From a virus, in IMG/VR virus record IMGVR_UViG_3300021407_000027, positions 1-38,585 of that record: DNA of 38,585 nucleotides, one strand, 5' to 3'. The notes under the pieces were generated by a model. That model saw only the letters and a program-made list of their open reading frames with translations, was not told the DNA's origin and ran no database searches. Positions 1 through 38,585 of this stretch are shown piece after piece (the stretch's first letter is position 1; each line of letters starts with the position of its first letter). A program made the position numbers and the translations under genes.

Positions 1-40
1 AAAGCCCAACGAGCCAAACCAGTGTGCGGAGGAAGTTCAT
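1..40 (-). CDS. 5' end of a late gene with signal-peptide-like start (cut by window edge)
   Basis: Only 13 codons are visible: ATG at 38-40 (read leftward) gives MNFLRTLVWLVGL and then leaves the window. The start overlaps the stop of the upstream glycine-rich gene in an ATGA arrangement, so translation is probably coupled. One basic residue followed by a hydrophobic run looks like the beginning of a Sec signal peptide or a membrane anchor, matching the two genes before it. The product cannot be named from this much sequence. Confidence 0.5.
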   Translation of the reverse strand, partial: MNFLRTLVWLVGL

Positions 41-1134
41 GGGCACGACCCCCCGCCCCATGTCACGCAAATGAAGCCCGCGCCGCCTGAGCCCCCGGTG
101 CCCCCTGCCGTTACCCCAGTTCCCCCGCCTGCACCAGACGCACCGAAACCCGCATTGCCACCCGCGCCACCCGTTCCGGTTCCACCTGATCCACCGCCCC
201 CGCCACCGCCTCCCGCGCCGACTGTTGCGCTGTAGGCACCGTTGCCGCTCGTGGTTGAGTTCGCCCCATTACCACCGGAGCCCCCCGTTCCGCTCGCTAC
301 GCCGTTGCCGCCACCACCGCCACCGCCTGACCCCGATGGGGCATTTCCACCCGACGCCGCGCCACCTGCCTGCGCGTTTGGCCCTTTGCCTCCCGCTGCT
401 CCGGTTGAAGTTGTCGCGGCAGTTCCGATCGTCGCCCCAGTCAAGGTATCATTACCACCCGCACCGCCGCCTCCCCCTGAAGCTGCGGCGTTGGCGGTTC
501 CGCCTGCGAGGCTGTTCCCATTCAGACCAGTGACGCCTTGACCTCCATGACCTCCCGTTCCCGTCGCGTTGGAGTTTCCGCCAATAGCGGATGCTCCCTT
601 CGTCGCGCTTGTGGGGGCTGTGCCCGCGCCTGCTGCGTTGCCTGCGGTGGTCGTCGTGGCGCTGACGCCGGGGTTTGCTTTCCAAATTACTGTACCAGCA
701 CAGGTGCCGGTGGTTGTGGTGATGCAAGAGGCTTGGCCGGTGCCGCCTGAAGCGACGACGCCGCCAACCGTCGCGAAGCATGTTGCGCCACAGGTTGTCA
801 GGCCGGTGCTGGCCGTCGCGATTGTTCCACCTATGATGTAGTAGTATTCCCCAGTCGAACCGGAGCTGGAGCCCTGAGTTCCGCTCGTGAGACCGTTGCC
901 CCCCGCACCGCCCGACGAAACCACATAGACGTTGATTGTGCCGTTGCAGGCCGAACTTGGGGGGGTGAAGCTTCCCGTTGAGACGCCGCTGGTGCCGACG
1001 AGTTCGTAGTCGCCTGCAGCGCAACTGGTACCGCCGACAGAGGCGTTATAGTTTGAGTCGCGTGATTGCCCAAGCATCCCCGCGTGGAGAGGGGCGATGG
1101 CTAAGAATGCTAGGAGGACAGGGACTAGACGCAT
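37..1134 (-). CDS. Glycine-rich exported virion/tail-fibre-like protein
   Basis: The ATG at 1134 is chosen because it overlaps the stop of the upstream gene (TAATG) and begins a signal peptide: MRLVPVLLAFLAIAPLHAG, with basic n-region, hydrophobic core and an AxA-like cleavage site. A longer reading frame upstream is arginine-rich noise antisense to sense. The mature protein has an N-terminal part with several cysteines (SCAAGDYELV, SACNGTINVYVV, TTCGATCFATVGG, ASCITT), then a long Gly/Ala/Ser/Thr-rich region from about residue 170 to the end, full of GGxGG runs, closing with FICVTWGGGSCP. Such glycine-rich domains occur in phage tail-fibre tips and adhesins, but here the export signal is unexpected. 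Role inferred: surface-exposed virion or secreted adhesin-like protein; no catalytic motif seen. Confidence 0.75.
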   Translation of the reverse strand: MRLVPVLLAFLAIAPLHAGMLGQSRDSNYNASVGGTSCAAGDYELVGTSGVSTGSFTPPSSACNGTINVYVVSSGGAGGNGLTSGTQGSSSGSTGEYYYIIGGTIATASTGLTTCGATCFATVGGVVASGGTGQASCITTTTGTCAGTVIWKANPGVSATTTTAGNAAGAGTAPTSATKGASAIGGNSNATGTGGHGGQGVTGLNGNSLAGGTANAAASGGGGGAGGNDTLTGATIGTAATTSTGAAGGKGPNAQAGGAASGGNAPSGSGGGGGGGNGVASGTGGSGGNGANSTTSGNGAYSATVGAGGGGGGGGSGGTGTGGAGGNAGFGASGAGGGTGVTAGGTGGSGGAGFICVTWGGGSCP

Positions 1135-2087
1135 TAGATCGAATAGCCCCAAGCAGTAACGGAGACAACGCCACCGGAACCGGGGGCGCCTGAGACCACA
1201 GCGATGGAGGTGGTGACGGCTGAGGCGGGGATGCAGGGGACGAAGGCTTCTTCGGTTACGCCGAGACCGGACGCGAGAGGCGCGGTCCATTGAGTGAAGT
1301 TGAGGGTGCCGCTTATGGTGCCGGTTACAGTGGCGTTATTGGTTGCGGCTGCGGTAGCGTTGGCTCGGATGGAGAAGCCACAGATATAAGTGGTGTGGCC
1401 GGTGACTGCGGTGAGGGTTGCGGTTGTGGCGGCCGTGGTGCCGGTTGCGCTGGCTGTGATGGGGACAGCGGTGGCGGGATAGGGGGAGATAGAATCAACC
1501 GCGCCGATGTTGACGGTGTGGGTGGACTGCGCGGCGATAGGGGAGGTTAGGTCTGTGTGGAGTTGATTGTTTGAGGAGACGTCGTCAATCTTGAGCGCGA
1601 AGTTGGGCGTGCCAGTTTCGCCGAGTTGGTCCCATGTGGTGCCGTTGAAGCCGTAGAGAAAGGAGACAACTGGTAGATTGGTGGAGGAGGTCGCTACGCC
1701 GCTGGATGCATTGGAGGTGGAGCCGGTTAGGCCACCTGCTTTGATATTGACGAGGGTGTTGCCGTTGACATCGACTAGAGGGGCTACCATCTGGCCCGAG
1801 GTGTAGGTCGGGGGAGAGGAAAGGTATTCGTAACCGGAAGCCGTGCCCGCGGTAGGGAAGGTAGCGTTGAAGTTGGATGAGGTGCCTCCGCCTCCACCAC
1901 CTCCAGAAGTTATTAGTTTGCCGTTAGTGTCGCATTGGGCATAGATAAAGAGGCCGGAAGCAATGGTGGGAGGGGAGGAGTTATAGGCACAGACAAGGGG
2001 GATGCCGGTGCCCCCAGGAAGCCATTGCTGAGAGAAGGCGGGGATTGTTGCCAATAAGAAGGCTAAAGCGGCAAGGAAGCGTCTCAT
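1134..2087 (-). CDS. Signal-peptide-bearing virion-like protein (317 aa)
   Basis: The first about 20 residues form a clear Sec signal peptide (MRRFLAALAFLLATIPAFSQ). The mature part is Ser/Thr/Ala/Gly-rich and beta-type, with four cysteines (VCAYN, AQCDTN, YICGFS, VPCIPA). The C-terminal third (TTYICGFSIRA ... FVPCIPASAV ... VSVTAWGYSI) resembles a recurring family of phage structural or decoration proteins that end in a Trp-Gly-Tyr motif; I recognise the pattern but no named function. The start overlaps the terminase-like gene's stop by ATGA and its own stop overlaps the next start, so it sits in a coupled late operon. Export of a virion protein is odd. Confidence 0.75.
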   Translation of the reverse strand: MRRFLAALAFLLATIPAFSQQWLPGGTGIPLVCAYNSSPPTIASGLFIYAQCDTNGKLITSGGGGGGGTSSNFNATFPTAGTASGYEYLSSPPTYTSGQMVAPLVDVNGNTLVNIKAGGLTGSTSNASSGVATSSTNLPVVSFLYGFNGTTWDQLGETGTPNFALKIDDVSSNNQLHTDLTSPIAAQSTHTVNIGAVDSISPYPATAVPITASATGTTAATTATLTAVTGHTTYICGFSIRANATAAATNNATVTGTISGTLNFTQWTAPLASGLGVTEEAFVPCIPASAVTTSIAVVSGAPGSGGVVSVTAWGYSI

Positions 2088-2650
2088 TCTGCGGCGACCT
2101 TCTTAAGGGAGTTGGTGCGGTGAATCGCGGCCTCGAGTTCGGCGGCGTAGTTCACATTCACATTGAGGTTGGCGGACTTCTTGCCGTAGCCGAAGCGGTC
2201 CATAAGGTCCGAGACGACGGAAAGGGCGCGATTCATCGGGACGAGTTCGCCTCGATCGTCGGCGTCGTCGAAGTGATCGTGGATTGTGCGAAGGCCTTTG
2301 GCGATGGCGCTCACACTCATATTTGAGATGTGATCTTGCTCTTCGCGCCAACCTTCGTCAATCATATCGCGATAACGGGCAACGTTCTCTTGCATCGCGG
2401 GGTCATTGCGATAACGACTGACAGTGGCGAGAGAGACTCCCGCAACGTTGGCGACTTGGACATTGCTGAGACCAGAGGCCATCAAGCGCGCGATGTTGTG
2501 ATGGGAGTCACGGAGCTTCTGAATGCGAGCCCAAGGAGCCGACTTCTCCCGCAATGCAGGAAGGTCCGCCTCCGTGAGAGGGCGGACCGCGAGGATGTGA
2601 TAGGGGTTGCCGCGAGTATTGCGCGGCCGTTCACCGGGCTTTAGGGACAT
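2084..2650 (-). CDS. Probable small terminase subunit (HTH protein)
   Basis: A 188-aa protein with a basic N-terminus, a helix-turn-helix at about residues 50-84 (HHNIARLMASGLSNVQVA ... VSLATVSRYRNDP) and a helical, acidic C-terminal half. Phage small terminase subunits share this layout: an N-terminal DNA-binding HTH followed by an oligomerisation region. It lies promoter-proximal in the leftward late operon, where TerS normally sits ahead of TerL and portal. It is followed, unusually, not by TerL but by signal-peptide genes; TerL must lie outside the window. No strong Shine-Dalgarno precedes the ATG at 2650. Alternative: a late transcriptional regulator with the same HTH. Confidence 0.6.
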   Translation of the reverse strand: MSLKPGERPRNTRGNPYHILAVRPLTEADLPALREKSAPWARIQKLRDSHHNIARLMASGLSNVQVANVAGVSLATVSRYRNDPAMQENVARYRDMIDEGWREEQDHISNMSVSAIAKGLRTIHDHFDDADDRGELVPMNRALSVVSDLMDRFGYGKKSANLNVNVNYAAELEAAIHRTNSLKKVAAE

Positions 2651-15674: not shown

Positions 15675-15841
15675 ACCGCTACGACAAGCCCTTTATCTTC
15701 CATCTAGAAGGTGACTGGTATCGTTGGTCACCAATAGCATCCCATCCGGTTATTTGTATATGGTGTGGATGTTGGATTGAGGTTCATTTAGATAAAATAC
15801 TAGAAGTAGTCAACAAGTACCAAGCACTATGCAGCAGATGA
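15671..15841 (+). CDS. Small cysteine-containing protein (56 aa)
   Basis: GTG start at 15671 overlaps the preceding stop (GTGA) and has GGGAG upstream. VICIWCGCWIEVH carries three closely spaced cysteines that may bind a metal. The end overlaps the UDG-exonuclease gene by 13 nt. No family recognised. Confidence 0.45.
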   Translation: MNRYDKPFIFHLEGDWYRWSPIASHPVICIWCGCWIEVHLDKILEVVNKYQALCSR

Positions 15842-16947
15842 CTCCACCAATCCTCTTCATCGGCGAAGCCCAAGGCGAGGACGAAGCCGTCTTCGGCGCA
15901 AGCTTCGTCGGCTCCTCGGGGATGGAACTCCTCCGCATGATGGACACCGCGGGGATCATCCACTTCGACAACCACGACCGCCACCACGTTTCCTCCTTCT
16001 ACTCAACCCGCAACCCTGCCCACACCAACTCTATCTGGGAACGCCATGCCGACCACATTCGTCGCACTAACGTCTTCCAACAGCATCCTCCCGGCAACGA
16101 CCTTAACTTCTTCTGCGGCGGCAAGTCCACCGCTATTGCAGGTTATCCAGCCCTCACTGGATCTAAATACATTCGCGCTGAGTTTGAACCCGAACTCGAC
16201 CGATTGTGTGCCGAGATTCTTGCTCTCAATCCTAATCTGGTGGTGTGTCTCGGCAATACTCCTCTGTGGGCTCTCAGCGCTAGAACGGCTATCACAAAGT
16301 GGCGCGGCGCTACGCTCTTATCAACGCACTGCATTAGCGATTACAAGCTTCTCCCTACTTATCATCCTGCTGCTGTTCTATACCAATATAGCCTGCGCCC
16401 CACAGCCGTAGCCGACCTTCAGAAAGCTCTACGCGAATCCCGCTACCCCGACCTCAGGAGACCCTCACGTGAAATCTGGATCGAGCCCACCCTCGAAGAC
16501 ATTGCCCAATGGTTCAGCAATTACAGGGCCTCATATCGAGATCGCGTACTCGCTACGGACATTGAGACGACAGGTTCACGGATTACATGCATTGGCTTTG
16601 GAACATCCGAGTCTGCCCTTGTTGTGCCATTTGATGACGAACGAACAAAGAGCGGAAGTTATTGGCCGACTCAACAAGCTGAGCGAGATTGCATTGAACT
16701 TATCCGCTCAGTGCTCGAGGACCCAACGATCAAGAAGGTCTTCCACAACGGACTCTACGACATCCCCTTCCTCTGGCGATCAGTCGGAATAAAAGTCCTC
16801 GGCGCGGTGCACGATACGATGCTGTTGATGCATAGCCTTCAACCTGAGTCGCTTAAGAGCCTAGGCTACTGCGGCTCCCTCTTCGCCGACGAATGCGCTT
16901 GGAAGAATCTTGGGGCCCATCACAAAACCATAAAGAGAGATGATTGA
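15829..16947 (+). CDS. Uracil-DNA-glycosylase-like domain fused to partial 3'-5' exonuclease domain
   Basis: Residues about 5-205 resemble the UDG superfamily (family 4/5-like): IGEAQGEDEA at 11-20 with FVGSSG, a TNVFQQHPPGND block, LGNTPLWAL and the HP motif TYHPAAVL. Residues about 235-372 resemble the DnaQ-like exonuclease domain of family A polymerases: ExoI DIETTG (244-249), ExoII FHNGLYDIPF (305-314), then HDTMLLMHSL. The protein ends TIKRDD before ExoIII, whose Y-x3-D lies at residues 23-27 of the polymerase encoded at 17132. It therefore seems to be the N-terminal half of a split UDG-exo-polymerase system. Whether the UDG domain cuts uracil or only binds it is unknown. Confidence 0.7.
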   Translation: MQQMTPPILFIGEAQGEDEAVFGASFVGSSGMELLRMMDTAGIIHFDNHDRHHVSSFYSTRNPAHTNSIWERHADHIRRTNVFQQHPPGNDLNFFCGGKSTAIAGYPALTGSKYIRAEFEPELDRLCAEILALNPNLVVCLGNTPLWALSARTAITKWRGATLLSTHCISDYKLLPTYHPAAVLYQYSLRPTAVADLQKALRESRYPDLRRPSREIWIEPTLEDIAQWFSNYRASYRDRVLATDIETTGSRITCIGFGTSESALVVPFDDERTKSGSYWPTQQAERDCIELIRSVLEDPTIKKVFHNGLYDIPFLWRSVGIKVLGAVHDTMLLMHSLQPESLKSLGYCGSLFADECAWKNLGAHHKTIKRDD

Positions 16948-17135
16948 TGGAAACCTTAATGAAACTATACTTGGAACTTGCCAACGTGGTGCCTTCAGAT
17001 TGCCTATCCTCTCGAGAACTGGCACTCCTAACAACGATTGAAGAAGCTCGAAAGCGGCTGGCAAAGGGAAGGGCGCTTTGGAATGGTCCATGTCATGAAT
17101 GTGATGCGGTGCTAGCCAAGGCCCTTAGCAAGTGA
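16947..17135 (+). CDS. Small protein inserted between exonuclease and polymerase halves (62 aa)
   Basis: ATG at 16947 overlaps the exonuclease stop by 1 nt (TGATG); its stop overlaps the polymerase GTG start (GTGA). The product is helical and basic (METLMKLYLELANVVPSDC ... IEEARKRLAKGRALW) with a late CxxC (GPCHECDAV). It is not a homing endonuclease or intein by length or motif. It might bridge the two halves of the replication enzyme, but no function is established. Confidence 0.55.
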   Translation: METLMKLYLELANVVPSDCLSSRELALLTTIEEARKRLAKGRALWNGPCHECDAVLAKALSK

Positions 17136-18736
17136 GAATCATCAACACCTCCCGCATCGACTCCTTCACGCTGAAAGGCTTTGATCGTGATCAAGTATAC
17201 AACGGCCTCGACGTCTGTGGCACGGCGGAGATCCTTGAGCCGATGCTATCGCAGCTCGATGACATCACATCTAGAACTTATCAATTCGAGCGCGACCTAC
17301 AGGGACCTGTATTGGAGATGGGTCTGCGAGGATGCCTCATTGATAAAGCTAGAAAAGCTCAGGTTATTGACGAGTTCTGGGAAGCGCTCGAAGTCCTCGA
17401 ACGAGACCTGAATCGCATTGTCATCGAAGGCGTGGGGATGCATGACTTCAACTGGCGCTCTAATCCAGATCGCCAGCGACTCTTCTACACCGAACTCGGC
17501 CTCCCAACGATCCGCAAGCAAGGCCGCCCCACCACAGACGATGACGCGCTGGATGAACTAGAGATCTACCCAATCGCGACTCAGATCGTCAAGCATATGC
17601 GAATGATGTCCGAGCTTGGCAAAAAGCTCTCAGTCCTACGAACAGAGATCGATGATGACGGACGAATTAGAACAAGCTATAACATTGCTGGAACGAGTAC
17701 GGGAAGATTTTCTTCGAGTCTCTCAGAATTTGGGACCGGAGGGAACCTACAGAATGTTGAAGAATCTCTTCGATCAATATTTATCGCGGACCCAGGCTTC
17801 AAATTTGCTAAATTCGATGCCAAGTCCTGTCAATCCCAAATCGTCGGCGCCATCTGTTGGAACCTCTTCAACGACTCCACCTACCTCGACGCCGTGGAGT
17901 CTGGAGATGTGCACACAGCAGTTGCTCGCCTCGTATGGCCTCACATGGGATGGACTGGAGACCTTCGGCGCGATAAGCATCTCGCAGAAACCCCATTCTA
18001 CCGACATTATACTCACCGTTTCATGTGCAAAAAGATTGGCCACGGCTCGAACTTCGGGGGAGAAGCAGCAGCCATCGCCTTAGAGACAAAGCTTCCCATT
18101 GACAAGATCGCCGAGTTCCAACCAAAATACTTCGAAGCGTTTCCAGCACTAAAGCAGCGCTTTGATTGGACGCGCAATGAGCTTAAGACAAAGCGCTGCC
18201 TCACCAGCCTTGGGGGACGCAGGCGTTATTTCTTTAAGCGCCCAAGTGATAAGAAATTGCTTAAAGAAGCCCTCGCCTACGATCCTCAGGAGACTGAGTC
18301 CTACGTCGTTAATACCGCTATGCTCAATATCTGGAAGCAGAACATTGCAATCTTAATGTTCCAAGACCATGACGCTCTAACCTTTATGTACCCCGAACGC
18401 GACGAATCCCGCATCATCCCCCTTATCCAACAATCCCTCCCAGTCCCCATCCCCCTCGCACACGGAAGAACATTAACCATCCCCTATGACGTTGAAGTCG
18501 GCTGGAACAAGGGACATTACGATGAACAAAGAAACCCCGACGGCCTTCGGGAATATAATGGATCGGACGACCGGCGTCGACGATCGCAAACTGCCATCAT
18601 GGATCGAGTCGTTCATCGAAGCGACAGAAAACCTAGACGCGCCATTGATCTATCGACGCTGGACCGCGATCTCGGTGTTGGCCGCGACGGTGACGCAGAG
18701 AGTCTGGGTCCGGACGAGCTCGAATCTGTTTCCTAA
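17132..18736 (+). CDS. Family A DNA polymerase (polymerase part, split from exonuclease)
   Basis: GTG start coupled to the preceding gene. Residues 23-27 (YNGLD) supply ExoIII. The polymerase core shows TSTGRFSSS and NLQNV (about 187-209), motif A FDAKSCQSQIVGA (D229; Q234 sits where most family A enzymes have Glu), O-helix RFMCKKIGHGSNFGG (R296, K300, H304, F308) and motif C QDHDAL (H413, D414, with Ala after). It lacks a complete N-terminal exonuclease domain. The family-typical end lies near PYDVEVGWNKG (451-461), yet the frame continues to residue 534, overlapping the helicase gene by 215 nt; the extra 71 residues are Arg/Asp-rich. Confidence 0.8.
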   Translation: MRIINTSRIDSFTLKGFDRDQVYNGLDVCGTAEILEPMLSQLDDITSRTYQFERDLQGPVLEMGLRGCLIDKARKAQVIDEFWEALEVLERDLNRIVIEGVGMHDFNWRSNPDRQRLFYTELGLPTIRKQGRPTTDDDALDELEIYPIATQIVKHMRMMSELGKKLSVLRTEIDDDGRIRTSYNIAGTSTGRFSSSLSEFGTGGNLQNVEESLRSIFIADPGFKFAKFDAKSCQSQIVGAICWNLFNDSTYLDAVESGDVHTAVARLVWPHMGWTGDLRRDKHLAETPFYRHYTHRFMCKKIGHGSNFGGEAAAIALETKLPIDKIAEFQPKYFEAFPALKQRFDWTRNELKTKRCLTSLGGRRRYFFKRPSDKKLLKEALAYDPQETESYVVNTAMLNIWKQNIAILMFQDHDALTFMYPERDESRIIPLIQQSLPVPIPLAHGRTLTIPYDVEVGWNKGHYDEQRNPDGLREYNGSDDRRRRSQTAIMDRVVHRSDRKPRRAIDLSTLDRDLGVGRDGDAESLGPDELESVS

Positions 18737-27508: not shown

Positions 27509-27695
27509 GACTATTCTCTTGAAGTAGCATCCTAGCAAAGCGCCGTTCAAGTCGCGCGTCAGACAAGCGCTTAATGGCGGCTAAGATGGTCTGCGCATCC
27601 TCCCGTCGCGCCCCTTCCTCCAGCCATTGCCGTATCCTATGGTGCTCTATATGACCCAATAATTGCTCGTAGGATGGATTATCATCATATGGCAT
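27501..27695 (-). CDS. Small helical late protein (64 aa)
   Basis: MPYDDNPSYEQLLGHIEHHR ... is helical and basic (RLSDARLERRFARMLLQ). ATG overlaps the preceding stop by 1 nt. Its place between tail-tube and core genes suggests a tail or assembly factor; no family recognised. Confidence 0.55.
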   Translation of the reverse strand: MPYDDNPSYEQLLGHIEHHRIRQWLEEGARREDAQTILAAIKRLSDARLERRFARMLLQENSHG

Positions 27696-30355
27696 TAACG
27701 TTCCCTTCCCTCAGAGTTAAACCTTGGGAACACCCCAAGCACCGTAGCGGGATATGGATTGGATTGCTGAATGTAATATTGCCCCGGCACAGTATACGTT
27801 GGATCCAGAGTGGTGAATGCATCCCCATCAACCAGTCCTGCTACAATCTGTGATGGCTGCCCCGTCAGCATCGAGGATACATTCCCTGTAACAAGGTCTT
27901 TCATTGGAGTCAATGTCGAAGCTGAGGAACCAATCGACAAGCCAAGGGTATCGGCAACCCGCACCACAACTGAGTTGATGACTTTGGTCTTGGTCTGAAC
28001 TGTGGGTTCCCCGATCTCTAGAGGGAGGGTTTGGAGGTTACAATCAAACCCGAGACCGATGGTGACAGTGGTGTAGCCAGTGGCCCCGGGAGGTGTCGGC
28101 GCGAGGAGGGTGAAGGCCCCTGAGAGCGGCATCACAAAGGGAGTAATGGCAGTCACGTTGCCAAGGTTATCTTGTTGGAGTCCGGTGACGGTCTGGCCTG
28201 CTAGATGCGTGGCACCGGAGAAGCTTAAGGTTGGCGCGCCTGAGTATTGCTGACCCGAGTCCACACACCAGGAGGAAATGAGTCCGTTCGGGAATGCGCG
28301 ATCCGCGATGCGTTCGATGTATTGAACACTACTGCCGTTGATGGTACGGGTAACGGCAAGATAAACCGCATCAACCGTTCCTGCATCTGTTGTTGCTTCA
28401 GCTACTGAGCAGACGGAGGTGAAGACGCCATTGGTAGTGTTATGATGCGCCCAGCCTTGGAACTCTTGCTCTTTGAGGAAGGTTAAGGAAAGAAGAACGC
28501 CGTCGTTGCGGACGGCCCAGACTACGAAGAAGGGGGACTCTGCCCAGGCCCATTGGGTTAAGGAGAAGCCATAGAAGAGATGCGAAGCAATCAGTGAGAT
28601 GTCAGTGCCAGTGAAGACGTTGAAGTAGATGTTGTAGGCAAGGTCTCGAACTTGATTTCCTTTAGATTGGACAAAGAGAATATCATAGTTGGAGATGATC
28701 GGCGGCATGTCATTCGCGCCGATGAAGGATTGAGCAGTTGCGACAATGTTCTCAGGACTGACTGCCGCGCTGACTCCTTGGAAGCTACCACCGCCGTTGA
28801 CGACCCAAGCTGCTTGATCGGTGAAGATCAGCATGCCAGCAGGGACACTCACAATCGACTTGATGTTGTTGGGTTGATTGCTGACAAGAGTTCCAGTGAT
28901 CGCGTCAGAGGCTATCACTGGTTGATGGATGTTAAAGTTGTAGTAATCCCCGGGCTGAGACATGTAGAAGGTTTGAGGGGAGGCAACGGGCGCGGCAAGA
29001 ACAAGGCGCTGTTGGAAGAAAGCGCAGACAGAGGGGTTACCTGCTGAGGCTGGCTGGAGCGTTGCAGTAGCGGTGGCTCCTGAAGGCGTGAAGATCACTG
29101 ACGGCACGGTGCCATAACCAGCCCCAGGAGCCGTCATTACTACTTGGCTAACACCCCAGATAACGGTTGCGGTAGCGCCAGTGCCGACTCCTGAGGTGCT
29201 TGTTTGCGTTAATGGGTTGCTAGGAGTCGCGCCAGAGGTGATAGATCCAGGGCTTAGAATGGCCCATGAGGTGATCGCGCCCGAGGAGACTGTTAGCACC
29301 AACATTGAGATGCCAAAGCCAAAGCCAACGGTATCATTGACAACGAAGCCAGAACCTCCTGCGGTGATGGTTGGAAGCGCATTTGCCGAAAGAACAGCAA
29401 AAGCCGTGGCAGGAGTGGTTGGAGTCCCTCCGAAGGATACCACTGGAGTAGTAGTGTAGGTCCCAGGTGCTGTGACCAGAACCGATGCGACCCCGGGCGC
29501 GCCGAAGGGATTCTGTCCAACAGGGACGCCTTGTGAGAAGTCCGCGGCGATGTTGCTATCAACGAAGCTGGTCCCGGTACTATAGCCGATGTAGCCGAAT
29601 TGCACCGTTGGGGGCTGGACGCCAAAGGTGGAGATGTTAGCCGCGTAGACTTTATAGAAAGTCGCGCCGGTAACTGGCGTCCATGTGATTTGGTTTGATC
29701 CGTAAGAAGGGAAGACGCGAATGTCGGCTCTGGGGCCTACACCAACCGAGGTGGATGCTACTGATTCCTGTCCTGTGGATGTAACCGCGGTGACTTCATA
29801 GGTGTAGTAGGAATATCCAATAACGGGATTGGTTGGATATGGATCGTAGACGATAATAGGTAGAGAGGATGTAACCGCGACTCCAGTTGGCGCGGTGATT
29901 GTTGGCCCAATGGGAATCGCGGCCAAGATCCAACTCGTCGATGAGACATAAGTTAGAGAATAAGGAACGTAATTGGGATGTGTTAGGATCATCACATTCC
30001 CGGTCTGGGTGAACTTGAGCAGCGCTAAGTCCGCACCAGCATAGGGAGTAGAGATTTGGGAGCCAGCCACAACCGCGCCTTGGAATATGGCGCGCATATA
30101 GTTCTGGCCCCATTCAAGGGCGTAGCCGATGTTAAATCCAGCCTGGAAACGGATCAGACGAACGGGATGCGTTGAGTCATGAGCCGTCGCGACGTAGATC
30201 GTCCCCGGGCGCGTTGATGCACCTCCTCGATAATCGACGAAGAAGTTCTGCATCAAGGCCGCGCCAGAGCGGTACTTCTGGATGTCAACTCGGGCGTAGA
30301 GCTGCGGGGCCCATTCGCCAGAGTTGAAAGAGGCTTGGACGTGGGTTTCAGTCAT
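27695..30355 (-). CDS. Tail tubular protein B-like (gp12-like), 886 aa
   Basis: The N-terminus (ASFNSGEWAPQLYARVDIQ, then MQNFFVDYRGGASTRPGT) is characteristic of phage tail nozzle/stabilisation proteins of the T7 gp12 type. A beta-rich insertion at about residues 290-430 contains repeats of a GGSGFVVNDTVGFG / GAGYGTVPSVIFTPSG kind. The core resumes with FFQQRLVLAAPVASPQTFYM. It forms the nozzle at the end of the tail and probably contacts the receptor or tailspikes. Overlaps the SGNH gene start by ATGA. Confidence 0.8.
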   Translation of the reverse strand: MTETHVQASFNSGEWAPQLYARVDIQKYRSGAALMQNFFVDYRGGASTRPGTIYVATAHDSTHPVRLIRFQAGFNIGYALEWGQNYMRAIFQGAVVAGSQISTPYAGADLALLKFTQTGNVMILTHPNYVPYSLTYVSSTSWILAAIPIGPTITAPTGVAVTSSLPIIVYDPYPTNPVIGYSYYTYEVTAVTSTGQESVASTSVGVGPRADIRVFPSYGSNQITWTPVTGATFYKVYAANISTFGVQPPTVQFGYIGYSTGTSFVDSNIAADFSQGVPVGQNPFGAPGVASVLVTAPGTYTTTPVVSFGGTPTTPATAFAVLSANALPTITAGGSGFVVNDTVGFGFGISMLVLTVSSGAITSWAILSPGSITSGATPSNPLTQTSTSGVGTGATATVIWGVSQVVMTAPGAGYGTVPSVIFTPSGATATATLQPASAGNPSVCAFFQQRLVLAAPVASPQTFYMSQPGDYYNFNIHQPVIASDAITGTLVSNQPNNIKSIVSVPAGMLIFTDQAAWVVNGGGSFQGVSAAVSPENIVATAQSFIGANDMPPIISNYDILFVQSKGNQVRDLAYNIYFNVFTGTDISLIASHLFYGFSLTQWAWAESPFFVVWAVRNDGVLLSLTFLKEQEFQGWAHHNTTNGVFTSVCSVAEATTDAGTVDAVYLAVTRTINGSSVQYIERIADRAFPNGLISSWCVDSGQQYSGAPTLSFSGATHLAGQTVTGLQQDNLGNVTAITPFVMPLSGAFTLLAPTPPGATGYTTVTIGLGFDCNLQTLPLEIGEPTVQTKTKVINSVVVRVADTLGLSIGSSASTLTPMKDLVTGNVSSMLTGQPSQIVAGLVDGDAFTTLDPTYTVPGQYYIQQSNPYPATVLGVFPRFNSEGRER

Positions 30356-30684
30356 AGCCTCTTGGCCAACTTAGCATAAGAGCGGGGGTGGGGGTTGCCA
30401 TGAAAGGAGACCACACGGTCCCCGGGGCGGGCGGGGATGGACACCCCCCAGCCGATTGGGTTCAGCCAGATCACATGGTCAGCGTTGATCTTGGCCCTGA
30501 CTTGACGGTTGCATCTGCCCGGGCGATCGTTGACCCCGGAGGAAATGATGGCGATATCGAAGTGCTGTGGTGGGACATGGGCCGCGATCCAGCAACTAGA
30601 CATGCTGACCTTGGCAATGACAAGGCCTTTGAGGACCATGCCAATGCCAACGGCGATGCTATCGCCAATGATTAGTGTAGTCAT
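30352..30684 (-). CDS. Small SGNH/GDSL hydrolase-like protein (110 aa)
   Basis: ATG at 30684. MTTLIIGDSIAVGIG carries the GDS block I (Ser9 as nucleophile), SSGVND the block III Asn-Asp, and NPHPRSYAKLAKRL a block V-like His, with Asn in place of the usual Asp two residues before. At 110 aa it is shorter than typical SGNH enzymes (about 180-200). Likely a deacetylase or esterase acting on host surface polysaccharide or peptidoglycan. It lies between the two tail-tube genes, so it may be a virion component. Confidence 0.6.
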   Translation of the reverse strand: MTTLIIGDSIAVGIGMVLKGLVIAKVSMSSCWIAAHVPPQHFDIAIISSGVNDRPGRCNRQVRAKINADHVIWLNPIGWGVSIPARPGDRVVSFHGNPHPRSYAKLAKRL

Positions 30685-30688
30685 AGAA

Positions 30689-31837
30689 TCACCCAAAGAT
30701 CGGCCACATGCCGCCCCAATCAAAGCCACTAAAGGGGCCGGAATATGGCGAGGGGAAGTCGATGCCGCGGATGCGGACCCAATCGGGAGTCACGTCATTG
30801 ATAGTGAGGCCTTCGTTACCATCCCCGACCCTGGCCTGCGCGATGATCTGGTTTGCCTCTTGGACAGCCATGTTAGCGAGCTTCTTGTCACCGGTGAGAG
30901 GGATGGTAAGGCGCGCTCCAAGGACGAGGGACCAAGTCTCGATGAAGGCCTCGTCCATGATGTCGGGATCGGTGATGTCTTGGCAATAGGTGCAGATCGC
31001 GAACTCTTGATTGCAGAGCAAGACGCGTTGGGGAGAGGGAGAGCCAAAGGTAAGATTGAAGGTCGCGCCAGAGCCAGTGCCTGTGGTATAGGCTTGACTA
31101 ATGGGATTGGGCAATGGAGCGAAGTAGGAGCCTCCAACTATAGGCCCTTGGGCCACTCCACTCTGCAATGGCGCGGTTTGGGTGTTGTTGACCTGACTGA
31201 CAACGGAGATGCCAGTGATGACGCCACCGCTCACGCTCGTAACGAGAAGCTGAACCGGGCCGCCATAAGGCTGAATGCCTTGGGTCCAGGTGATGTCGCC
31301 GTTGGTCGGGTTGATCATCCCCGGGCCGTAGATGATGTCGCCGACGTTGTAGCCGGTTCCGCCAGAGACGATCGCGGCAGCGGTGACGGGATAGAATGTG
31401 TCGTTCTTGATATTGTACTTGACCGGCGGGCCTTGCCAGAAGCTGGATGCTCCACCAGTCACCGCGGTGGTGATGGGGACTCCACTGGCAAAACCTGTTA
31501 GCGTTGAGGGGATGACAAGGATCATCCTCTGGCAGTCATTGGGGTATTGGTACTCGTAGTTCCACGGCGGCGACGGCTGGCCGGGTTGCCAGAGAGTTGT
31601 CGCCGCCATGGTGTTTTCAGGTGTCCCCGGCGAGGAGGTGATATAGATCAGGTTGGCGGTTTTGGTCGCGAAGTTCCAAGGCGCCATGCGAATCAATCGC
31701 CGACGTGTGTTGTCGATAATGAGGTTGGCTTGGATTGCTTCGTTGGTCAGGTTTCCCGCAAGCTCGGCATCGGTCACGCTCGTGCGAGTGCCGGGGACTT
31801 GAAGAGCGCGATTGACGATGTCGGTTGCGGTGGTCAT
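30689..31837 (-). CDS. Tail tubular protein A-like (gp11-like), 382 aa
   Basis: MTTATDIVNRALQVPGTR ... IIDNTRRRLIRMAPWNFA matches the start of T7 gp11-type tail adaptor proteins (helical bundle, conserved APWNFA). It is about twice the length of gp11 because of an inserted beta domain (about residues 125-240) with a VSGGTGYNVGDIIYGPG motif, the same kind of insertion seen in the neighbouring gp12-like protein. The core resumes with LCNQEFAICTYCQDI ... EAFIETWSLVLGARL. Confidence 0.8.
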   Translation of the reverse strand: MTTATDIVNRALQVPGTRTSVTDAELAGNLTNEAIQANLIIDNTRRRLIRMAPWNFATKTANLIYITSSPGTPENTMAATTLWQPGQPSPPWNYEYQYPNDCQRMILVIPSTLTGFASGVPITTAVTGGASSFWQGPPVKYNIKNDTFYPVTAAAIVSGGTGYNVGDIIYGPGMINPTNGDITWTQGIQPYGGPVQLLVTSVSGGVITGISVVSQVNNTQTAPLQSGVAQGPIVGGSYFAPLPNPISQAYTTGTGSGATFNLTFGSPSPQRVLLCNQEFAICTYCQDITDPDIMDEAFIETWSLVLGARLTIPLTGDKKLANMAVQEANQIIAQARVGDGNEGLTINDVTPDWVRIRGIDFPSPYSGPFSGFDWGGMWPIFG

Positions 31838-33722: not shown

Positions 33723-34013
33723 TTATCCTTTCGGGGCTTCCTTTGTGACCTGCGTCCCGGCAGGCGCGGTGACTTTGGTGTCCTTCGTGAGAGTCTGTGT
33801 CTGGATCGCGGGGGCGAGTGGACCGAAGACCGAGGCAGGCAGGAACGGATTGGCAATCAAGTAGACCGCCATGATGAAGGATGACCATGAGGTGATGTAT
33901 GGGCCCCAGGTTTCGGGGACGCCGAGTGGCAAGTGGATCGCGCCTTGTGATGCCGCGGCCACGAGCGCCATAACGATCATAACAAAGGTACCAAGTTGCT
34001 TCGTGCTGATCAT
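33723..34013 (-). CDS. Probable holin (96 aa, two membrane segments)
   Basis: Two hydrophobic segments, about residues 7-28 (LGTFVMIVMALVAAASQG) and 39-58 (ITSWSSFIMAVYLIANPFL), with a polar Thr/Lys tail (QTQTLTKDTKVTAPAG). It overlaps the endolysin stop by ATGA. Pairing with a lysozyme-type gene is the classical holin/endolysin arrangement, here with the holin second. No signature motif exists for this class. Confidence 0.6.
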   Translation of the reverse strand: MISTKQLGTFVMIVMALVAAASQGAIHLPLGVPETWGPYITSWSSFIMAVYLIANPFLPASVFGPLAPAIQTQTLTKDTKVTAPAGTQVTKEAPKG

Positions 34014-34828
34014 GATGATTTCACCGTTGTGGTTGGGATGATCTTGGCAAGTTCAGCCGCGATCAAGCCAGGGAGGGCTCCTGTTAGCTGAGCAATGAGA
34101 GGGGTGACGATGGAGGTCACGATAGTAGTTGGGTCAAGGGAGACTACCGGTGGAGTAGTGCCAGTAGTTGGAGTTGTAGTTCCCGTCACTGTTACCGGAA
34201 GCGCGACTCCAGTCTGCGCGATGACTTCCTTGACGAGACTAGCGACGACTGCGTCAATTAAGGCTAAGAGGAATGGGTTCAAGGTCGAGGCTCCTGTTGG
34301 TGCTGGGGCTGGGATTGGGACTGGAGTAGGCTTTGGTGCTGGGGTTGGAGTTGGAACTGGCGCGACCACCTGCGGTACAGCCGCATCAAGAGTCTGGGCG
34401 AAGGCGACAGAGCGCGAGATCTCAGCGGAGGGGTTAGCAGGACCTTCGTATTGAGTGACGAAGAGAGTGATGAATGGAGTATAGGCCATGCCGGATTGTA
34501 TCGCGGCCCAGACGTTGCTATAGCTGTTGGCGCATTCGGTTAGGATGAAGTCGAGTTGGGTGTTAACGGCAGTGGGGGACTCGCCTTTAGCCGTAGCGAA
34601 GGCTTGAAGCGCGGCTTGGCGGGGGCCGTTCCACGAGGCGATGCCAAAGGCGCCCCCGCCAAATAGGACACCCCCAGTATCAGTTGAGCCTGTTGCTGGC
34701 TGCGGTCCTGGATTTAGCTGTGACTCCCCAGCATAGCAGACCGAGACAATGCCAATAGCAGGGCCACGTGCGATGCCTTTCTGGAGATAGTGCGTTACTG
34801 CGTCAATCGCGACTTGAGGTACTGCCAT
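34010..34828 (-). CDS. Endolysin, phage-tail-lysozyme-type (272 aa)
   Basis: ATG at 34828 with AAGGAG 6 nt upstream. The N-terminal about 145 residues resemble the Phage_lysozyme2 family (PF18013): Glu35 in YAGESQLNPG as likely catalytic acid, then GGGAFGIASWNGPRQAALQ and TQLDFILTE. Residues about 155-182 are a Pro-rich linker (PVPTPTPAPKPTPVPIPA), followed by a hydrophobic/amphipathic C-terminal region (LNPFLLALIDAVVASLVKEV). The tail might help it cross or perturb the outer membrane. Sits next to the holin. Confidence 0.7.
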   Translation of the reverse strand: MAVPQVAIDAVTHYLQKGIARGPAIGIVSVCYAGESQLNPGPQPATGSTDTGGVLFGGGAFGIASWNGPRQAALQAFATAKGESPTAVNTQLDFILTECANSYSNVWAAIQSGMAYTPFITLFVTQYEGPANPSAEISRSVAFAQTLDAAVPQVVAPVPTPTPAPKPTPVPIPAPAPTGASTLNPFLLALIDAVVASLVKEVIAQTGVALPVTVTGTTTPTTGTTPPVVSLDPTTIVTSIVTPLIAQLTGALPGLIAAELAKIIPTTTVKSS

Positions 34829-34837
34829 TTGGGCTCC

Positions 34838-36697
34838 TTATAGGGTTCCGTTCTTGATGCCGTTGATGAAGATGCGATAGGAACTGGCAGGGGCTGCACC
34901 ACCGTTGATGAAGAAGCTGGATATGAATGTATCAGTGTTGCCATTAAGTTGAAGGTTGAGGAACGTGTTGCCCGTGGCGCTGTTGAAGAAGCCTACATTG
35001 CTAGTGTAAGCGGTGTTGAAGGTGAAGCTATCGTTCCAGATATGGGCCATGGTAACAGTGGTGTTGTACATATAGTGAGTGCCGGTGGGCGCACTAGCAA
35101 CACCCTGAATATCAAAATGGGAGTTGGTTAGAGATGTGCCAAGGAAATCGGCAATGTAGCCAGTGGTACCTACTAGTTGAGTAGTGAAGGGGAAGAGGAT
35201 CCCACTCATACGCAAGGAGTCGATGGTACCTTGCGTCTCGAGCATTGATGGCCAGTAGTCGGCCTCGACTTTGATGTCAATGTCTTGGGAGTTCTTGATG
35301 TAGATGGGATAGGCGTTACCGGGATAACTGGCACCTCCTCCGCTGATCTGGGCGGTATAGAATTGATAGAAGGAGATGTCATTAGAGGCTTCGATGTAAA
35401 GGGCGAAGCCGCCGCCGGTGCTTAAGGAGGAGCAGCCAAGGCACTTCATACCATCGGTACCAATAGCGGTGGCGTAGTAGGTGCCATAAGTGGGCGTGAC
35501 TGAGAGGGGGTTGTTAGTGGTTAGAGCGAAGCCGTAGTCTCCAGAGACGCCGACGTTGGTCCAAGTGGAGAGGCCACCGCCGTTGTTAAAGGAGATCGGG
35601 ATGCTGTTGATACCTTCTTTGAGGTTGATCACGACATTGTTGAGCGCGATGTCGGCGCCGCCGGGGGAGCCGGTGTATGTGTCGGCGCTGGAGCCGAGGA
35701 GGAGGCCGTACTTTGAGGCATTGGTTAGGCCAACAGATGAGATCGCGATGTTGTTGAAGTGAATGGAATTGCCGCCAATGCAGTCAAAGACCTCAGCGCT
35801 GGTCTGGCCAAGGAGTACAGAGCCGACTGAAGGCGTGGCATTGACGAGATTGAAGCCGGGGAATTGCGCCACAGTGCCGTTGATTGTGAGGCCTACTTTG
35901 TTATGGCAATCAAGTGGGGTGGCGATCTTGTTTTTGCCGGGAGGCATGTTAAGAGCGTTGCCAGTGCCTGAGAGCGCGTTGATGGCATTCTGCCAAGGTG
36001 TGCTTTCATCAGTGGCCCCGGTCATGTCCACCGCGCCAAATTCGCGGCTGTCGGCGCCCGTTGAAGGCCAAACCGCGAGCCAGCATTTGCCATCGGAAGA
36101 GGTGACTTGGGAGCCGCCGTCGCCGGTGCCGGAGAATAAGGAGCAGGCGGAATTGCTAGAGTTGTAGATCTGTGGAGGGGCATCGCCTTGATTGGCGTAG
36201 CCTAAGCGGAGGACTTGGGCGCTGGCTGTGGAGGCGAGAGCAGATAGCGCCGTGTTGTTGGCCGCGATAGAGAGAGCAGATCCAGCAACGGCAGTGGATC
36301 CAGTGTAGATCGCGAGGTTGCCAATGACACCCGAGCCAACTGTACCACTTCCGCTCGGGGAGCAGGCGACGCTGGAGAGACCTCCTGAGGCGTCATAGAC
36401 TGCGCATTGACCATTGGTGGTGGTGCCATCAATAACTGGGAACTTGGTGGTAGTACCGGATCTGGTGCCTTGAGTGAAGCCGTTACCAGCCGCGTTGCCG
36501 ATGACGGGAAGGTTAGGAGTGATAGTGCCCGTTATGGAGCCAGTGCCGAATTGGTTCACAAACGCGGTCGAGGCGCAGGAGTTGGAGGAGTCTCCAGCAG
36601 GGCGCGTTGGGCATGTTGGGTTCTGGGCATGGGCCGACCCAAAGGCGAACCAAAGCGCGGTGAGAGCGACAGCGGCGATGAGGACTCGTTTAGACAT
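34838..36697 (-). CDS. Beta-helix tailspike-like protein with N-terminal signal peptide (619 aa)
   Basis: ATG at 36697 starts MSKRVLIAAVALTALWFAFG followed by SAHAQ, a textbook Sec signal peptide. Next come paired cysteines (TCPTRPAGDSSNSC; QCAVYDASGGLSSVAC) in a Ser/Gly-rich stretch. From about residue 220 a pectate-lyase/glycosidase-type right-handed beta-helix begins (REFGAVDMTGATDESTP, PPGKNKIATPLDC). The body shows strand-turn repeats and the C-terminus is Ser/Asn/Phe-rich. Tailspikes bind and cut surface polysaccharide. The export signal is unusual: tailspikes normally fold in the cytoplasm, so the segment may instead anchor the spike in the virion. Confidence 0.7.
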   Translation of the reverse strand: MSKRVLIAAVALTALWFAFGSAHAQNPTCPTRPAGDSSNSCASTAFVNQFGTGSITGTITPNLPVIGNAAGNGFTQGTRSGTTTKFPVIDGTTTNGQCAVYDASGGLSSVACSPSGSGTVGSGVIGNLAIYTGSTAVAGSALSIAANNTALSALASTASAQVLRLGYANQGDAPPQIYNSSNSACSLFSGTGDGGSQVTSSDGKCWLAVWPSTGADSREFGAVDMTGATDESTPWQNAINALSGTGNALNMPPGKNKIATPLDCHNKVGLTINGTVAQFPGFNLVNATPSVGSVLLGQTSAEVFDCIGGNSIHFNNIAISSVGLTNASKYGLLLGSSADTYTGSPGGADIALNNVVINLKEGINSIPISFNNGGGLSTWTNVGVSGDYGFALTTNNPLSVTPTYGTYYATAIGTDGMKCLGCSSLSTGGGFALYIEASNDISFYQFYTAQISGGGASYPGNAYPIYIKNSQDIDIKVEADYWPSMLETQGTIDSLRMSGILFPFTTQLVGTTGYIADFLGTSLTNSHFDIQGVASAPTGTHYMYNTTVTMAHIWNDSFTFNTAYTSNVGFFNSATGNTFLNLQLNGNTDTFISSFFINGGAAPASSYRIFINGIKNGTL

Positions 36698-37052
36698 TGC
36701 TATCAACCACTGTGAGAGGGTTGCCGGATCCACTTGCCGCGAAGGCTTGCCAAGGCTTTTGGCATTCACCGGTTATGGTCAGGGTGCCTCCATTAGCATA
36801 GACGCGGAAGCATCCCCCAAGGGCAGCTGTAGTTGGAACAAGAGCGACATCGCTGCCTGAGCCAATAACGAAGGAAGGAGCAAAGAACACGTCAACAGTT
36901 CCTGGATTGTGAACCGTGATTGATTGACGCTGAGAATTAGTGCCAATCACTTGTTGTGGAGTTGTAGTGAGATTATTGAAGGCGTAGACACGGCCACCAC
37001 TAGCGGAGCTTACCGTTCCGGGGGAGCCGACACTAGTGGTGATCGTGGACAT
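36690..37052 (-). CDS. Small decoration-type virion protein (120 aa)
   Basis: Beta-rich protein (RQSITVHNPGTVDVFFAPSF) followed by GGCFRVYANGGTLTITGEC and ending LTVVDSNV. The HNPGTVDVFFAPS pattern is common in small phage structural or head-fibre proteins. It overlaps the tailspike start by 8 nt. Exact role unknown. Confidence 0.6.
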   Translation of the reverse strand: MSTITTSVGSPGTVSSASGGRVYAFNNLTTTPQQVIGTNSQRQSITVHNPGTVDVFFAPSFVIGSGSDVALVPTTAALGGCFRVYANGGTLTITGECQKPWQAFAASGSGNPLTVVDSNV

Positions 37053-37056
37053 TGGG

Positions 37057-37587
37057 TTAGCCTTTTAGTCGGATGGTGTCAGGGGCGCGAGAAGCGAGCT
37101 GCTGCTCGGCCATCAGTTGCGTTAGGGAGGCGAGGGCGCCGACGAGTTGATCCATTCCTGGGATCATGATTGGCTGAGGAGTCACATCAGCGCGATCAAC
37201 GACAGCCTGAGAGTAGTTCTGCTCAGCGCGCTCAGGCTTATAGGCCCAAAGACTCTGGAAGCTATCAGAGATTTCCTGAGCCTCCTCGTCTTGGGGGATC
37301 ATATCGGGAGTGGGGTCGCCGAAGATTTCGATTTCTCCTGGGAGGCCCTTGCCCTTAAAGACAATGACCTCACCTTCAGCATCATCCATGTTGCCCCCGG
37401 CTGAGACTGGAACACCCACCTGATTCCGATTGGTCCAGCACTTGGGGTCGGCGGGATCGAGAAGGCGCGGAACGATGAACTCCTTTTCGACAAGATCGCC
37501 CGAGGCGCGATCAGTGTGGGAATAGCGCCATTTGGCGGGGCGCACTGTGTTGATGTAGTGCGGGCATGCAAGTTTCCATCGCGCCAT
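37057..37587 (-). CDS. Conserved phage structural-module protein (176 aa)
   Basis: ATG at 37587 follows the preceding stop by 1 nt. MARWKLACPHYINTVRPAKW ... FGDPTPDMIPQDEEAQEI matches a recurrent phage protein family located between head and tail genes. It has an acidic C-terminal half and no enzymatic motif. Function unknown. Confidence 0.65.
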   Translation of the reverse strand: MARWKLACPHYINTVRPAKWRYSHTDRASGDLVEKEFIVPRLLDPADPKCWTNRNQVGVPVSAGGNMDDAEGEVIVFKGKGLPGEIEIFGDPTPDMIPQDEEAQEISDSFQSLWAYKPERAEQNYSQAVVDRADVTPQPIMIPGMDQLVGALASLTQLMAEQQLASRAPDTIRLKG

Positions 37588-37588
37588 T

Positions 37589-38239
37589 TCAATTCTCCGC
37601 CCATTCGAAGGTGATGTTGAGGAGTCCGGTGGCAATCGTCTTGCCATCGAGGTTGATGCAGATTTGTTGGACTACGGTCCCAGCTTTAGGGATGTCCCAA
37701 GACTGACTGAACAACGTGACCGCACCCGGACCTGCTTCGATCTGGGTGATTGGATTGGTCGCGGTGGTGGTGACCGGGAACGGCACGGCTTGACCCCAGA
37801 GAAGATTAGGGGTAGTGTCGTTCACGGTTCCGTTGGTGGTCCAGGCAGTGACAGTCGCGGTGGCGGCAGCATTGCTTGGGTTTAGAGGTGCCGCAACTGG
37901 AAGTGCTAGGCCGGTTGCTGGAGTGCCTGCGGTGTCGAGACTGTGGTTGAGGTTTAGCAGAACCGGGGTCGTGATGGCTGTAGCCGCGGTGCCTGAGATC
38001 AACACGCGTCGTAGGCTCACCGTCTTGGTGGTGGAGCCGTTGAGGCACATGATGTCAGTGGCCGAGGAGGCTGGAGCCAATAGCACCGCCGTGGCTGTGT
38101 AGGTCGGTTGACCCACGACGGCACAGATCACGCCGATTTGCGGAACGGTGTTGACGCCACAGACTTGTGCATGCGCTGGAGTGGTGGCTGGGGCAGCGAG
38201 CCCCAGCGCCAGCGCAACTAAGAGGAAGAACCTTTTCAT
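37589..38239 (-). CDS. Signal-peptide-bearing virion-like protein (216 aa)
   Basis: ATG at 38239 with AGGAG 7 nt upstream. MKRFFLLVALALGLAAPAT followed by TPAHAQ is a strong Sec signal peptide. The mature protein is beta-rich with four cysteines (QVCGVN, GVICAVV, IMCLNG, QICINLDG) and ends LLNITFEWAEN. It resembles small decoration or head-fibre proteins but is predicted to be exported. Same pattern as the genes at 37-2087. Confidence 0.7.
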   Translation of the reverse strand: MKRFFLLVALALGLAAPATTPAHAQVCGVNTVPQIGVICAVVGQPTYTATAVLLAPASSATDIMCLNGSTTKTVSLRRVLISGTAATAITTPVLLNLNHSLDTAGTPATGLALPVAAPLNPSNAAATATVTAWTTNGTVNDTTPNLLWGQAVPFPVTTTATNPITQIEAGPGAVTLFSQSWDIPKAGTVVQQICINLDGKTIATGLLNITFEWAEN

Positions 38240-38251
38240 TGCGCGCTCCTG

Positions 38252-38585
38252 TTAGTTAGCGATATTGATACCGGCTTGATAGCCGGAGAGGGCGCCGGTT
38301 GTGCCGACGATCTGTTCTTGCTTGTCGAGCGCGATCCACGCCTCGAGAGAGGAGGTGGTGAAGGTGCCGACCACGATGGTACGCATCCGGAGGTATCGCG
38401 GGAGAACCTGTTCCCAGATCACCCTCGGCATATCGACATTGGCAAGTTGAGCTCCAATAATGAGATTCGCCACCGCGATGACGGGAGAGGTCCACATCAC
38501 AGTGTAGGAGCCGGGGGCGCCGGAGCCATTGTCAGGGGCGCCGGAAAGCTCAAGCTGGACGCTGGTGCCGCCGACCCATGCGATG
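38252..38585 (-). CDS. C-terminal part of a capsid-cement (Bbp16-like) protein, cut by window edge
   Basis: About 110 residues are present, open at the right edge: VQLELSGAPDNGSGAPG ... then IIGAQLANVDMPRV, YLRMRTIVVGTFTTSSLEAW and GYQAGINIAN at the end. Beta-rich with the YLRMRTIVVGTFTT pattern of Bbp16-type capsid cement/decoration proteins, which follow the major capsid gene. This implies that the major capsid gene lies just outside the window to the right. Confidence 0.5.
   Translation of the reverse strand, partial: IAWVGGTSVQLELSGAPDNGSGAPGSYTVMWTSPVIAVANLIIGAQLANVDMPRVIWEQVLPRYLRMRTIVVGTFTTSSLEAWIALDKQEQIVGTTGALSGYQAGINIAN

Follow-up and report, generated by a model that had tools for sequence, protein, structure and literature searches.

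Predicted export signals and even-numbered cysteines in late proteins of a BPP-1-like podovirus contig and its uncultured relatives

Tailed phages are taught to mature entirely in the cytoplasm. A 38,585-base record from an uncultured virus, given as linear (IMGVR_UViG_3300021407_000027; analyzed whole and called the window here), raised the question of why late genes of such a phage should begin with export signals, as a first-pass annotation had claimed, and what their products would do outside the cytoplasm. Four complete genes are concerned, named A to D (Table 1).

The sequence identifies the window as part of a BPP-1-like podovirus genome (Rauchvirus relative). Its 886-aa tail protein shared 33% identity with Bbp13 of Bordetella phage BPP-1 across 82% of the length, and the gene order, as seen in relatives, was that of the BPP-1 group. 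The late genes of the window were on the minus strand. The window did not contain the segment from TerL to the capsid gene; judged from the map of a relative (G001; 50,043 bases), this segment should fall past both contig ends. The export-signal genes had been described as one cluster of late genes. Such genes were confirmed, but in two clusters, at the same two sites as in G001. Site 1 held B and A between the small and (by synteny) the large terminase genes, and site 2 held D and C, flanked by the Bbp16-like head gene on one side and the tail tubular genes on the other. In G001, TerS was followed by two export-signal genes and by a 502-aa gene occupying the place of TerL. After the head block and Bbp16 came D, a pair of genes without signals, C and an exported protein of 1127 aa; the tail tubular genes lay further on. 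The G001 homologue of the HTH gene upstream of B was syntenic, standing before these two export-signal genes and the 502-aa gene.

Table 1. Features of the two export-signal sites in the window.
Feature	Coordinates	Strand	Description
X	1..40	-	Next coupled gene, first 13 codons only (MNFLRTLVWLVGL); ATGA overlap with stop of A
A	37..1134	-	Predicted exported glycine-rich adhesin-like protein, 365 aa; 8 mature Cys; QSRDSNYN directly behind signal
B	1134..2087	-	Predicted exported protein, 317 aa, 4 Cys; C-terminal all-beta domain with invariant Cys pair
B conserved C-terminal beta domain	1137..1532	-	From alignment of family; AF2 pLDDT 81
HTH protein, small-terminase-like	2084..2650	-	Upstream of B; weak terminase and HTH matches
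C	34838..36697	-	Predicted exported tail-fiber/tailspike-like protein, 619 aa, 10 Cys; mature N-terminus QNPTCPTRPAGDSSNSCASTAFV
120-aa protein	36690..37052	-	No signal; between D and C; synteny conserved
196-aa protein	37057..37647	-	No signal; between D and C; synteny conserved
D	37589..38239	-	Predicted exported beta protein, 216 aa; invariant Cys pair C65, C194
Bbp16-like head protein	38252..38584	-	5'-truncated at contig end; marks position behind major capsid gene

Other genes of the window were recorded alongside these sites. A Phage_lysozyme2 (tail-lysozyme domain) gene without a signal was found at 34010-34828, overlapped by a holin-like gene at 33723-34013 with two hydrophobic segments; because of the second segment the holin-like product was read as a membrane protein despite its score under the signal rule, and the two genes are likely a lysis pair adjoining tail fiber gene C. 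The tail tubular proteins (27695-30355 and 30689-31837) were longer than those of BPP-1 (886 versus 681 and 382 versus 223 residues), apparently through inserted segments. A small GDSIAVG...SSGVND protein (30352-30729) looked SGNH-hydrolase-like by eye and had no PHROG match; its gene and the end of the tail tubular A gene overlap. The polymerase gene was separate from a fused exonuclease-like gene (15829-16947 and 17132-18736); by eye, the fused gene combined a uracil-DNA-glycosylase-like N-terminus with a 3'-5' exonuclease-like C-terminus.

Signals were called with a transparent home-made rule (basic n-region, hydrophobic h-region, AxA-type site), complemented by tests of conservation and cysteine parity; signals accepted by eye were counted separately from rule calls. 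The first-pass claim that the complete genes start with Sec-type signals held for all four, each of textbook type by the rule, with the three features of Sec export and signal peptidase I (SPI) processing in place. The signals (caret, predicted cleavage) were MRLVPVLLAFLAIAPLHA^G for A, MRRFLAALAFLLATIPAFS^QQ for B, MSKRVLIAAVALTALWFAFGSAHA^QN for C and MKRFFLLVALALGLAAPATTPAHA^QV for D; for B and D the mark is our own reading, the rule having placed cleavage at 17 and 18, respectively. Gene starts were well defined: A by a TAATG overlap with the stop of B, B by an ATGA overlap with the preceding gene, C by overlap with the stop of the upstream gene, and D by an AGGAG 6 bases upstream. Several cysteines in the mature parts were likewise borne out, with all four counts even (8, 4, 10 and 4 in A to D). 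The 1648-aa and 581-aa late proteins of the window contained zero cysteines. With the first 60 residues shuffled at constant composition, the rule fired at rates of 0.2-0.7% for A, B and C; the rate for D, with an N-terminus very rich in A/V/L, was 4.9%. The same rule flagged 0 of 70 late genes in four cultured relatives (BPP-1, Caulobacter SR18, Pseudomonas Ab31 and Vibrio MZH0603).

Relatives of B were found in 57 IMG/VR loci. A signal was present in 42 of the 43 distinct B-domain open reading frames (ORFs) by the rule and in the 43rd (L114) by eye. Alignment of the family brought out a beta domain conserved at the C-terminus, in which one pair of cysteines was invariant, and the stretch between signal and domain was freely variable; the shortest members, at 137-143 aa, were hardly more than signal plus domain. 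Of the 41 loci usable for this comparison, 34 had an exported ORF beginning -18 to +1 nt from the B stop (28 by the rule, six by eye). The QSRDSNYN motif of A occurred in 15 distinct ORFs in related loci, all 15 with export-type signals: 13 by the rule, one by eye, and one (L026/L088) with a twin-arginine (Tat)-type signal in front of the same motif. Further twin-arginine-type signals were observed in late cassettes at L067:11277-12851, L080:2269-4491, L091:14216-15142, L097:6400-8673 and L104:2237-3730, besides the A-type gene of L088; a few members may therefore be exported folded.

The B-domain alignment had no match in GTDB genomes, searched for prophage or host copies, and tblastn against cultured phages gave no match for B, for the A homologue of L061 or for a Tat-type member. 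PHROG and Pfam yielded nothing for A, B or D. The B domain had no significant fold match in the PDB (best E 0.002, TM 0.45), and on these values a carbohydrate-binding reading of the domain is not claimed.

The mature motif of C (CPTRPxGDxxNxCAxTxFV), searched as a DNA pattern, was found in 35 viral contigs and in none of the GTDB genomes. A signal directly preceded the motif in 35 of 35 cases (31 by the rule; L138, L147, L148 and L154 by eye). Sequence downstream of the motif varied, giving the tail-fiber arrangement of a conserved N-terminal module and a variable body, and the constant module would plausibly serve attachment. Relatives of D occurred in 39 loci, and 29 of 31 distinct ORFs had a signal; the other two were ORF fragments, and for one of the 29 (L131) the rule call was made on a wrong start, the correct one being MRKLLLSSAAWALAASAALAQ. 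Two cysteines were invariant in the D family. No tblastn match to D was found in cultured phages, with a second family member queried too, and no confident fold match. The N-terminal signals were thus kept among homologues throughout, as the first-pass annotation had proposed to check: 43 of 43 for B, 35 of 35 for the C motif, 15 of 15 for the A motif and 29 of 29 intact ORFs for D.

Extracytoplasmic proteins are known for even cysteine counts (PMC7678975). Parity was compared among cysteine-containing proteins in the loci around these families, using representatives clustered at 40% identity. An even mature count was found in 103 of 118 signal-bearing proteins and in 124 of 300 no-signal neighbors (Fisher p 1.4e-18), numbers to be read with the IMG/VR loci coming partly from related samples and the families, after deduplication of ORFs, still being of shared ancestry. 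With at least two cysteines and at least 120 residues, the counts were 97 of 106 and 101 of 193. Spurious ORFs in the no-signal set should lie near chance parity and so should not have made the contrast. The signal-bearing set showed the expected preference for even numbers, and the B and D families had invariant pairs in addition. Given this excess, the four families are very likely exported to an oxidising compartment, and disulfide bonds may be presumed in A to D.

Signal and cysteines also went together. A cysteine-free form of the C motif (PxGDNxTxxATTxFV) was found in 50 ORFs, 46 of them without a signal; a rule-predicted signal thus accompanied 4 of 50 cysteine-free motifs versus 35 of 35 of the cysteine version (p 9e-20). 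Three cysteine-free tail-fiber-motif proteins (L184, L185 and L188) had a good signal peptide and are possible intermediates. In a BFVD search the B domain came structurally closest to P26059B_0041, an uncharacterised 126-aa protein of the cultured Curvibacter phage P26059B. It shared the fold (TM 0.80, 32% identity in the structural alignment) but, unlike B, had neither signal peptide nor cysteine. Kinship of the two was supported by profile comparison (hhalign E 0.003), though with a low probability score.

Exported genes held comparable positions in other contigs. Seven genes with rule-predicted signals stood between the Bbp16 homologue and the tail tubular gene in L075. In L087, L091 and L108, exported genes followed, at a distance of a few genes, a very long ORF without cysteines; this ORF may encode a podovirus ejection protein or the tape measure of a siphovirus. 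Two further proteins were recorded: a 943-aa late protein with a lipoprotein-like N-terminus (MKKFLCIVFAVALAACAPIID; L087:11872-14703), and a signal-bearing 612-aa protein with 6 cysteines in all, encoded among early genes outside the late operon (G001:40648-42486; L247).

Some members bore a likeness to tail fibers. C matched phrog_33320 and, in part, the tail fibers of Bcep781 and Bcep43, and its motif resembled annotated tail fiber/collar proteins of cultured phages. Exported family members matched several tail-fiber PHROGs, Peptidase_S74, pectate lyase, Gly_rich_2, LamG and GDSL, each of these in only one to three of 115 exported members. No other tail-fiber candidate stood out among the profile matches of the window. 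A to D had no match to a lysis family and did not qualify as spanins or SAR endolysins.

The reading we prefer, and hold to be slightly better than an even bet, is that A to D are exported, SPI-processed, disulfide-closed tail-fiber or adhesin proteins that dock on a partner and recognise a surface with a variable body. They would leave the cytoplasm by the host Sec pathway, be cut by signal peptidase I and close their disulfide bonds in the periplasm. Docking on the partner would then fall to short conserved motifs close to the processed N-terminus (CPTRPxGDxxNxCASTAFV in C, VNxVPQVG in D and QSRDSNYN in A), and recognition of a surface sugar or protein to the long variable part. Of the options first raised for these proteins, periplasmic processing is well supported as a prediction by the conserved sites and cysteine parity. 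An adhesin role fits best, on account of the gene sites, the tail-fiber matches and the constant N-terminus with variable body; for a secreted matrix no specific support was found. The partner would most likely be the virion tail or head-tail region, reached once lysis opens the envelope. The disulfide bonds, docking, attachment to the virion after lysis and receptor binding are all proposed from sequence. Against the preferred reading, a tailed phage matures in the cytoplasm, so docking of exported A to D would need a further route. In addition, BPP-1, Caulobacter SR18, Pseudomonas Ab31 and Vibrio MZH0603 manage without export signals in this block, A, B and D drew no profile match and D no confident fold match, and a conventional fiber gene could lie in the missing genome segment. 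The broader proposal, that a large group of tailed phages completes its virions outside the cytoplasm, with receptor-binding fibers that are exported, are processed and disulfide-locked in the periplasm and join tails only at lysis, is put forward tentatively, the odds being somewhat against it.

The main rival holds that the proteins are exported and disulfide-bonded but never on the virion, acting outside the cytoplasm before or after lysis as free depolymerases, adhesins, decoys or a superinfection block. A cleavable signal is naturally read as export, matches to secreted enzymes (cellulase, arabinofuranosidase, GDSL lipase, pectate lyase) occur among the members, Tat signals are seen in a few, and no assembly step outside the cytoplasm is needed. 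We nonetheless regard free factors as rather unlikely. If they were free factors, the present sequence would offer no evident receptor-binding protein for these phages, and at least four different exported proteins per genome are many for exclusion. Moreover, several members match tail-fiber families and the S74 chaperone typical of virion fibers, and the short conserved motifs near the mature N-terminus, followed by variable bodies, look like docking modules.

Unconventional anchoring had also been suggested: uncleaved signals would hold the proteins, or tails attached to them, at the inner membrane, or the hydrophobic segment would itself bind the virion. Hydrophobic N-termini taken alone are compatible with this, but the AxA^Q-type sites are conserved, the conserved motifs begin within a few residues of it, the even cysteine counts presuppose transfer to the oxidising side, and in L026/L088 a Tat-type signal replaces the usual one before the same mature motif. 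Anchoring is accordingly disfavored as improbable. We think it quite improbable, too, that A to D are host-derived cargo genes (morons) unrelated to tails. Cargo could plausibly insert between the terminase genes or behind the head gene; yet the GTDB pattern scan returned neither a B-domain relative nor a C-motif match, phage contigs carry the families repeatedly and in a set order (B then A, D then C), and tail-fiber motifs are present. Chance or gene-calling artefact in an alanine/leucine-rich genome, to which the home-made predictor and the shuffle rate of D might point, was rejected as scarcely credible on conservation and parity, with 15 to 43 distinct homologues per family keeping the signal, none flagged among the cultured relatives, the parity p-value given above and coupled starts.

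If true, a widespread exported and disulfide-bonded fiber-like set would mean either a virion assembly step outside the cytoplasm or free adhesins released before lysis. Either outcome changes how receptor-binding proteins are sought and expressed, and such proteins may misfold in the E. coli cytoplasm without disulfide formation. The host Sec and Dsb systems become candidate host factors for these phages.

Among known systems, the coat proteins pIII and pVIII of filamentous phages are virion proteins made with Sec signals, and filamentous virions are extruded as they assemble at the membrane; the window and its relatives represent instead tailed dsDNA phages with a tail lysozyme. BPP-1 (Rauchvirus) shares the order TerS-TerL-portal-MCP-Bbp16-tail tubular and the related tail protein Bbp13 but, unlike the window, has no export-signal genes in the block from TerS to the tail tubular genes. 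The fiber/collar proteins of Bordetella PHB04, Dinoroseobacter R5C, Cyanophage PP and Rhizobium RL2RES carry a motif (PxGDNSTxIATTAFV) similar to that of C, but one without cysteines and in proteins without a signal peptide. The feature itself is wider than this window, being common to many uncultured phage contigs. Sets of such genes had been called little described, and the open literature, to which the search was confined (subscription papers being outside its scope), indeed gave no description of sets of signal-bearing tail proteins; a single cultured case had been noted all the same. Bcep781 gp49 and Bcep43 gp48, the Naesvirus tail fiber of Burkholderia phages, are about 46% identical to C over 83 residues. 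Like C, Bcep781 gp49 has a Sec-type N-terminus (MNMKKNKHVLFGVLLTACGLPAFA^Q), with 14 cysteines behind the predicted site; unlike C, it is a lone protein in a baseplate-bearing phage and has a different mature N-terminus. Bcep781 is a cultured soil phage, its tail fiber gene stands two genes behind the baseplate wedge gene, and the record of gp49 reads "possible tail fiber; possible signal peptide domain," so that a cultured precedent, noted as a possible signal peptide, exists.
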